From assembly GCF_000003815.2 (NCBI RefSeq), contig NC_049986.1:7082170-7146169 (forward strand): DNA of 64,000 bases, written 5' to 3'. A model generated the notes under the pieces. That model worked only from the letters and a program-made list of their open reading frames with translations, made no database searches and was not told the origin of the DNA. This DNA comes from Branchiostoma floridae (Eukaryota > Chordata > Leptocardii > Amphioxiformes > Branchiostomatidae). Shown here piece by piece: positions 50,401-53,400 of this stretch (the first letter of the stretch is position 1; each line of letters opens with the position of its first letter). The position numbers and the translations under genes were made by a program.

Positions 50401-53400
50401 ACGAACATTGAAGTAAGGTGAATGTTGAGCTAACTTTACTCACACGAGTAGCATGAAGACGGGCAGTATGACCCCAGCAGTGCTCATGTAGCTGAGGACA
50501 GTGGTGAGCCAGGCCGGGAACTGTTCCTGTACCGTGTCTGGGATGATGTCAAACATGCGCCGCCGGCCACTGAAAATAGATATCATACAAATACTGGGAA
50601 AACTATAATGTGTTACAACGTTCTTTTGACAAAGCCAAAAGACCTGTAAACGTTATGGTAGTCATTCTTCTACTTTTCTCTATAGCAACAAGTCGACAGC
50701 GTTACCTAAACGGCATACAGTTCCTGGAAGGTTCTATAGTGATAAGCTGATTGTGTTTACCTGAACGGTCCACAGTTCTTGGAAGGTTCTATAGTGGTAA
50801 GTTAATAGTGTTTACCTGGAACAGTTTCTGGAAGGTTCTATAGTGATAAGTTGATAGTGTTTACCTAAACGGTCCACAGTTCCTGGGATGTTCTATAGTG
50901 ATAAGTAAATAGTATAGTGCTTATCTAAAATGTCCACAATTCCTGGAAGGATCCATATAATAGTGATAAGTCGATAGTGTTTAGCTGATCGGTCCACAGT
51001 TCCTGAAATGTTCTATAGTGATAATTATAAGTAGATAGTGTTTACCTAAACGGTCCTCAGTTCCTGGAAGGTTCTATAGTGATAAGTAAATAGTGTTTAC
51101 CTGAATGGTCCACAGTTCCTGGAAGGTTCTATAGTGATATGTTGAAAGCGGTTACCTAAACGGTCCACAGTTTATGGAATGCTCTATAGTGATAAGTTGA
51201 TAATGTTTACCTAAACGGTCTACAATTCCTGGAATGTTCTATAGTGATAAGTTGATAGTGTTTACCTGAACGGTCCACAGTTCCTGGAATGTTCTAGAGT
51301 GATAAGTTGATAGTGTTTACCTGAACGGTCCACAGTTCCTGGAATGTTCTAGAGTGATAAGTTGATAGTGTTTACCTGAACGGTCCACAGTTCCTGGAAT
51401 GTTCTATAGTGATAAGTTGATAGTGTTTACCTGAACGGTCCACAGTTCTTGGAATGTTCTATAGTGATAAGTTGATAGTGTTTACCTGAACGATCCACAG
51501 TTCCTGGCCGGGGAAGATTGTAAAGTCGTAAGTTGACAGTGTTTACATGAACGGTCCATAGTTCCTGGAATGTTCTATAGTGATAAGTCGATAGTGTTTA
51601 GCTTAACGGTCTACAATTCCTGGAATGTTCTATAGTGATAAGTTGATAGTGTTTACCTGAACGGTCCACAGTTCCTGGAAGGTTCAATAGTGATAAGTGA
51701 TAGTTTTTACCTAAACGGTCCACAGTTCCTGAAATGTTCTATAGTGATAAGTTGATAGTGTTTACCTGAACGATCCACAGTTCCTGGCCGGGGAAGATTG
51801 TAAAGTCGTAAGTTGACAGTGTCTACATGAACGGTCCATAGTTTCTGAAGGGTTCTATAGTGATAAGTCGGCAGTGTTTACCTGAACAGTCCACAGTTCC
51901 AGGAATGTTCTATAAATAGTGATAAGTAGATATTGTTTAGCTTAACGGTCTACAATTCCTGGAATGTTCTATAGTGATAAGTTGATAGTGTTTACCTGAA
52001 CGGTCCACAGTTCCTGGAAGGTTCAATATTGATGAGTAGATAGCATTCAGTACCTAAACGGTCCACAGTTCCTGAAATGTTCTATAGTGATAAGTTGATA
52101 GTGTTTACCTGAACGATCCACAGTTCCTGGCCGGGGAAGATTGTAAAGTCGTAAGTTGACAGTGTTTACATGAACGGTCCATAGTTTCTGAAGGGTTCTA
52201 TAGTGATAAGTCGGCAGTGTTTACCTGAACAGTCCACAGTTCCAGGAATGTTCTATAAATAGTGATAAGTAGATATTGTTTACCTAAATGGACCACGGTT
52301 CCTGGAAGGTTCTATAGTGATAAGTGATAGTGTTTACCTGAACGGTCCACAGTTCCTCGAAGGTTTTATAGTGACAAGTGATAGTTTTTACCTGAACGGT
52401 CCACAGTTCCTGGAAGGTTCTATAGTACGGTGTTTACATAAACGGCCCGCAGTTCCTGGAAGGTTCTATGTATATAGTGATAAGTTGACAATGTTTATCT
52501 GAACGGCCCACAATTCCTGGAAGGTTCAATGGCAATAGTTGATAGTGTTTACCTAAACGGTCCACAGTTCCTGGAAGGTTCTATAGACACCATGACGTAG
52601 CCCGTGGGGAGCATGCTCAGGAACAACATGATGAGCAGCAGGACGAAGTAGAAGTTGTTGGACCTGGAGGCGCGGAAGACCCGCTGGTGAGGAGTGTTAC
52701 ACATGATGACTGCCCAGCTGCGCAGGTACATCAGCGCTATCAACTTCAGCACGTTCAGGACAGGCAGGCAAGGCGCGAAAAACGCCCCCATCCTGTTGAT
52801 GAAGGAACGACAGTTATGAAAATATTCAACAATGGCCTTCGCATACCGCCAATACTCAAATGATAAGAGATCGTATTGACTGAGCAAGAAATTCGAATCA
52901 AGTTTACCAGATCATCCCTTGATTGTAGATGAGGTGTAGCACATTCTCAGCAACGCCGAACTCGCCATAGCCGGGCTGGAATGGAGGAATATAAATCCAA
53001 GTATGAATCTTCTATTATGCCTTCCATGGTATTGCCCATAACTTGAGTTGTTTGCAATGTTCATCTTTATACAACACAAAATGAAGTTTTAACTGTATCC
53101 GGTAGCCTTCTTCAGGCATTTGACCCATTTTCCTGATTGGCATTGCCCTTCCGAATGTGTGACGTCAGGAGTGAATCAAATGTGTACAGAAGTCGATACC
53201 TGCCGCCGTCCCAGTTCAAGCCGGCTATGGGCTTTCATTATCTAAGTTGATCTCTTTCAGGATTTCCGAGTGTAGTTTCAATAGTAACAGCCGTTGTTAA
53301 CTGAATTATATTAATTCAGGACAATACCGACTTCCAAGCACCTTTGACCCATTGCTGACGTCACAATTCCAGTCTGGAGTTGTGACATATGCTTTGGGTC

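Follow-up and report, generated by a model that had tools for sequence, protein, structure and literature searches.

How does a minisatellite arise from the boundary between a coding exon and its intron, how does the gene tolerate it, and does it stay confined to that gene? The question is raised by a TMC gene, here gene A, in the window, a stretch of 64,000 nucleotides (C8:7082170-7146169) of the 513-Mb, 431-contig assembly of Branchiostoma floridae, the one assembly analyzed. Minisatellite duplications of exon-intron boundaries are known in lancelets as mirages (available text of PMC3087553 and PMC3902484). An original prediction, made from the letters of the window, held that one intron of gene A is filled with copies of its own upstream exon end and 5' splice site.

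Anatomy of the Array in Gene A

Gene A lies on the minus strand and extends from 61.95 kb of the window, or farther upstream, down to about 48.7 kb. Taken together, its exons match C. elegans TMC-1 (7usw, E 1e-80), the PSR.CGPF motif included, and the open frame of the exon next to the array ("exon 7" in Table 1, with limits based on splice signals, open frame and paralogs) matches the Pfam TMC family (PF07810, E 2.1e-13).

TRF reported an array at 50702-52586 of the window, with a period of 55, 33.7 copies and 79% matches. In a wrap-around parse, the exon copy is followed by 33 copies within the intron and, at 50685-50680, by a remnant of 6 bases, confirming that the intron is filled by its own exon end and 5' splice site. 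The array begins 20 nt into the intron (52552-50570, 1,983 nt) and takes up nearly all of it. As predicted, the unit (CTATAG...TTCAG|GTAAAC...TTATCA) joins the exon end to the start of the intron, in the proportion of 34 coding to 21 intron nt and not about 37 to about 18. The peptide proposed for the exon end needs correction after CGPF, where splicing gives S (AG|T) and R is obtained on read-through only. Growth of the minisatellite out of a coding exon/intron boundary is supported, the true exon end being the first copy of the unit. Within the array, 51708-51939 recurs 343 bp further on, over 232 bp with one mismatch (two exact runs, 115 and 116), which looks like a recent multi-unit duplication.

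Table 1. Positions in the window of the array, the neighboring parts of gene A and related features.
Feature	Position	Strand	Remark
TMC "exon 7"; its 3' 34 nt are the first repeat copy	52553..52792	-	acceptor CAG at 52795-52793
Authentic 5' splice site TAG|GTAAAC (GT)	52551..52552	-	U1 duplex -6.7 kcal/mol
33 intronic copies of the 55-bp exon-end/donor unit, with 6-base remnant	50680..52532	-	TRF, wrap-around parse
Remainder of the intron, 110 nt between array and next exon, including the acceptor	50570..50679	-	
Next TMC exon, predicted to be lost upon decoy donor use	50444..50569	-	
Multi-unit duplication within the array, apparently recent	51708..52282	.	
155-nt stretch identical in A and B, read as a putative gene-conversion tract	52556..52710	-	
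Second array of gene A, about 8 units of about 48-50 bp	61952..62405	-	last unit holds the acceptor of exon 61802-61951

A Paralog With the Same Array

A genome search with the exon and its junction found exon and array together at C8:2971422, on the plus strand and 4.16 Mb from A (paralog B), and the exon without the array at C198:5439-6023 (paralog C). Among the matches listed for a 165-nt array query of the genome were A, B and one exon end on C198, and no third array. The unit consensus is identical in A and B (55/55), and mean unit distances are 0.150 within A, 0.101 within B and 0.133 between them (permutation p 0.85); the two arrays behave as a single pool. The new junction between units, TTATCA^CTATAG, occurs in exact form 17 times in A, 3 times in B and never in C, and a 50-nt stretch with a shared variant is present in both arrays. 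Many B units have lengths of their own; the first ones are short, and their sequence departs from that of A immediately after the donor. Outside the array, the introns gave genome matches of the dispersed-repeat kind only.

Two further features were seen at these loci. Minisatellites with units of about 42-45 bp and a common GGTGCTGAACA motif lie in B's intron (L010 2860-3924) and at 18796-20283 of the window. In C, the exon is split at CCAG|..|ATCC by a 335-nt intron (C198 between 5555 and 5890), perhaps a gain in C; by eye, the site is read through in A, B and the distant loci, the C13 loci being outside this comparison.

Near-Identity of the Exon End in A and B

A, B and C were compared over 12 gap-free coding segments (segment E4, which has no match in C, was excluded from comparisons with C; E2 and E3 share one splice-junction codon and some segment ends may overrun the exon, which leaves the result unaffected). 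In the 11 segments other than exon 7, synonymous codons differed in 125/253 cases for A-B, 102/228 for A-C and 103/228 for B-C. Outside exon 7 the three genes are thus roughly equally diverged (45-49%), and judged by these differences no two of them look like sisters.

Exon 7 gave another picture. Of the 237 coding nt compared, the first 81 contain 13 positions that distinguish A from B and the next 156 contain 1; the corresponding synonymous codons differ in 8/21 and 1/48 cases (Fisher test of the latter: 1.2e-11 against the other segments, 1.8e-4 against the first part of the exon). Over these 156 nt, 15/44 synonymous codons differ between A and C and 14/44 between B and C, so the near-identity of A and B is not mere constraint. 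The identical stretch (Table 1) is bounded by A-B differences at 52711 and 52555. Its bounds were chosen after inspection, a point answered in part by permutation: the longest run of A-B identity covers 20 of the 322 trio-variable sites, and 100,000 permutations reached 15 at most. Elsewhere, A and B are 69-87% identical in the segments compared. Such a tract of near-identity between paralogs that are diverged elsewhere, which constraint does not explain with C as the control, is what interlocus gene conversion would leave.

If real, the conversion would be recent, because the tract difference (1/156) lies below the 4% polymorphism given for B. floridae in the available text of PMC8994340. The array cannot be dated to a single event, since its units differ by 10-15% versus 0.6% for the exon tract; this calls for several exchanges or for an array that changes faster. 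Nor is the tract seen to run unbroken into the array, because the first B units are short and differ past the donor.

Homogenization of the exon end by its own array, which had been raised as a possibility, was not seen in A, where the divergence of the units from the exon copy averages 9.9% and shows no positional trend. Distance from the exon and unit divergence gave a Spearman coefficient of -0.24 in A (p 0.19, 33 units) and 0.60 in B (p 0.03, 13 units), B units being less exon-like farther away. The homogenization apparent from the alignments is of a different kind, with the exon end equalized between the paralogs A and B.

The main rival to conversion is an assembly error, in which reads of one paralog were misplaced via the common repeat and the near-identity is an artifact. 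A tract difference below the level of polymorphism would fit this as well; misassemblies and allelic swaps are described at a repeat-rich locus of an earlier amphioxus assembly in the available part of PMC2632668, and part of the tract might come from a chimeric join within the repeat. However, the 30 kb around B contain no N and the gap nearest the A tract is about 6 kb away, short units and a donor (CAG|GTAGAC) peculiar to B show that its array is not a copy of A, and the upstream edge of the tract lies within unique coding sequence. The array is in any case present at both loci. We consider an artifact unlikely.

It is somewhat less likely still that conversion affected the exon end and intron start only, and that the two arrays grew independently afterwards. 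The near-identical exon end and the many B units of individual length would be expected under such a history, but the identity of the new unit junction and of the 21-nt intron consensus in both arrays would not, nor would the 50-nt stretch with its shared variant.

Decoy Donors and Splicing

Donor strength was estimated as the ViennaRNA duplex energy with the U1 end, a rough measure. The prediction that each unit brings a donor-like GTAAAC holds in so far as GT is kept in 28/33 decoys of A, while the statement that most read CAG|GTAAAC was slightly too strong (15/33 exact; TAG|GTAAAC in 4/33). About half of the decoys outdo the true donor: 16/33 pair better with U1 and 5/33 equally well. In B, where the true donor scores -8.0, GT is kept in 11/13 decoys and pairing is stronger than at the true donor in 8/13.

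Of the A decoys, the one closest to the true donor has lost its GT (ATAAAC) and the next is weak (TAT|GTAAAC), the nearest strong one being 161 nt downstream. Selection on decoys, which this might suggest, is argued against by the strong decoys of B at 40 and 80 nt from its true donor.

Read-through of the true donor gives AGG TAA at once, as foreseen. Translation predicts that splicing at a decoy, in A as in B, would run into the stop at the true boundary whichever copy is used, which supports the claim that decoy use would truncate the protein; it would end at the exon boundary. The stop is not peculiar to the array, being common to phase-2 introns that start with GTAA, GTAG or GTGA after AG, and the array-free paralog C likewise reads an immediate stop past its donor.

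The array might tune splicing, its decoys competing with the true donor to yield a regulated truncated or decayed transcript. Better U1 pairing in 16/33 and 8/13 decoys would be in keeping with such a role, as would a stop that is the same whichever decoy is used. Against it, the donor columns of A bear no signal of conservation or loss over the 33 copies: they agree with the consensus at 0.906 over the exon part, at 0.899 over the donor nonamer and at 0.889 over the remaining intron part. The decoy columns are neither purged nor preserved, which lends no support to the earlier suggestions that selection favors the first donor or that the array tunes splicing. The values for B, with gaps counted as mismatches, are 0.912, 0.872 and 0.708, the last being lower because many B units are short in their intron part. 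Paralog C, moreover, has no array. We see no sign in the sequence of a splicing function; the regulatory reading is unsupported and seems quite improbable.

Boundary Repeats at Other TMC Loci and in the Window

A search with the Pfam TMC family returned 9 matches, which fell on A, B, C and two places on C13, and a protein search gave one place on C3 and two on C5; these five further loci were viewed as stretches of 10 or 20 kb, not always whole genes. At C13:18893748-18894672 there are six copies of a 164-bp unit that combines 85 nt from the exon end with 79 nt of intron; the first five copies are 97-99% alike, and 5/6 have identical donor nonamers. The exon can be aligned to gene A (E 5e-6, pairwise), where its last residue coincides with that of the 55200-55090 segment. 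This TMC gene carries a mirage of its own, at a junction other than that of A and B. Identical tandem donors cannot be sorted by strength and would therefore fit a choice by position.

A 115-bp unit with the end VTHR|GTAACG is present on C5, near 4702998, in three full copies and a shorter further copy, and on C3, near 111747, the same boundary-like unit in two full copies and a shorter further copy. The two loci are 95-98% identical, and the difference in copy number (2 vs 3) may reflect duplicates or misplaced haplotypes. The open frame is the sole basis for taking this repeat as TMC coding sequence. The C13 and C5 exon peptides had no match to solved structures up to E 1, and the C5 peptide gave no alignment with the gene A segment tried, so the C3/C5 repeat is a candidate mirage only. 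Over the eight TMC loci, donor mirages are thus supported by similarity at three (A, B, C13) and are candidates at two (C3, C5), with none in the stretches examined of C, the other C13 locus and the second C5 locus.

Among 35 coding segments of A, B and C taken with 60 nt on each side (exon 61802-61951 being outside the set), 32 gave no extra match. Exon 7 and its B counterpart returned their array series, and A's segment 50103-50026 had six extra matches, including one (79% over 48 nt) less than 8 kb away.

Gene A has a second array, on the acceptor side of an exon (Table 1). The last 50 intron nt before exon 61802-61951 match its unit with a score of 66 (28 was reached in 500 shuffles), and the exon side showed no clear match (p 0.07 and 0.16). 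No match to this unit was found in the 30 kb around B's N-terminal exon (C8:2943633) or in the 30 kb searched on C198, a stretch in which the matching exon was not found either. Here, there is neither a shared array nor conversion, which fits the conversion view as one case. Little was learnt from other arrays of the window, which were checked for entering open frames. A 41-bp array at 45521-46084 is open in three minus frames for 210-250 codons and looks like a stop-free repeat, not a gene.

Proposed Origin and Spread of the Array

The composition of the unit, and the position of its first copy in the exon itself, point to a mirage born by tandem duplication across the 5' splice site. It would be tolerated because splicing takes the upstream-most donor, through exon definition by the intact 240-nt exon, with the later copies treated as intron. 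Growth may have proceeded by slippage or unequal exchange, multi-unit jumps included. The pattern observed at A and B then suggests that two non-sister TMC paralogs, 4.16 Mb from each other, exchanged the array together with about 155 nt of the adjoining coding exon. Interlocus gene conversion would be the simplest route, and the repeated homology of the array may be what allowed two otherwise diverged genes to pair. We regard it as likely that the mirage is tolerated in its intron and that the array and the adjoining exon tract were exchanged between A and B by interlocus gene conversion.

An array older than the A/B split, inherited vertically with the exon end kept by nucleotide-level selection, would account for the likeness of junction and unit in A and B but is very improbable, given the differences from C at 15/44 synonymous codons in the same stretch, the lack of any closer A-B relationship elsewhere, and an intron consensus identical over 21 nt in genes with about 49% of synonymous codons differing. 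More broadly, an independent or an old vertical origin of the arrays is unlikely because of the divergence of the genes and because intron sequence beyond the array matched only dispersed-repeat-like sequence.

More tentatively, and somewhat short of an even chance in our estimation, mirages may spread in this way in general: the homology of an array would let diverged paralogs recombine, so that the array copies itself into the same junction of the other gene, dragging along coding sequence and homogenizing, here, an ion-channel-like exon of genes that would otherwise be too different for conversion.

The class of splice-site minisatellites is known; the new and surprising part is the sharing of an array by A and B and its link to conversion between paralogs. 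If the assembly is right, such minisatellites are not merely passive clutter, one of them being tied to a recent coding exchange between old paralogs. The nearly equal tandem donors (33 decoys in A, five identical nonamers on C13) also form a natural test of first-donor choice by the spliceosome.

Comparison With Known Systems

A partial literature search yielded no paper on amphioxus TMC genes and no title or abstract linking conversion to mirages. The available part of PMC2632668 deals with gene conversion and repeats in amphioxus VCBP genes and does not mention mirages there.

Minisatellite repeats are among the sequences noted with gene conversion in the accessible portion of a review (PMC3966225), and the present case is similar in this association. 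It differs in that the repeat itself consists of exon and donor site and is present at both partners. A homology of about 92% has been proposed in the same text as needed for efficient recombination, whereas A and B are far below this outside the tract (69-87%). Splice signals are multiplied as in intron gain by AGGT-bearing tandem duplication (PMC4974935, as far as its available text goes), but in A an existing intron was enlarged and no new one was made.

The closest relatives are the mirages. According to the available parts of PMC3087553 and PMC3902484, they occur in Adh3, the globins BflGb6 and BflGb9 and troponin C, at both 5' and 3' boundaries, with units of 10-72 bp in Adh3, 150-160 bp in BflGb6 and 157 bp in BflGb9; repeats in PGBD5 are likened to mirages in PMC3902484, which names troponin C. 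Splicing is normal despite the copies, allele length is unstable, with somatic instability at Adh3, and in BflGb6 the boundary copies escape homogenization while the internal copies are in concerted evolution. The array of gene A resembles these as a tandem, minisatellite-like duplication of an exon-intron boundary whose copies carry splice signals: its unit spans the boundary (34 exon and 21 intron nt, 33 copies), and AG/GT signals persist in many copies (GT in 28/33 in A, 11/13 in B). By these features of the class, already known in itself, the array is a mirage. It stands apart from those described in its 33 copies, its multi-unit duplications and its occupation of nearly the whole intron, and in being common to two paralogs, beside a coding tract that appears to have been converted.
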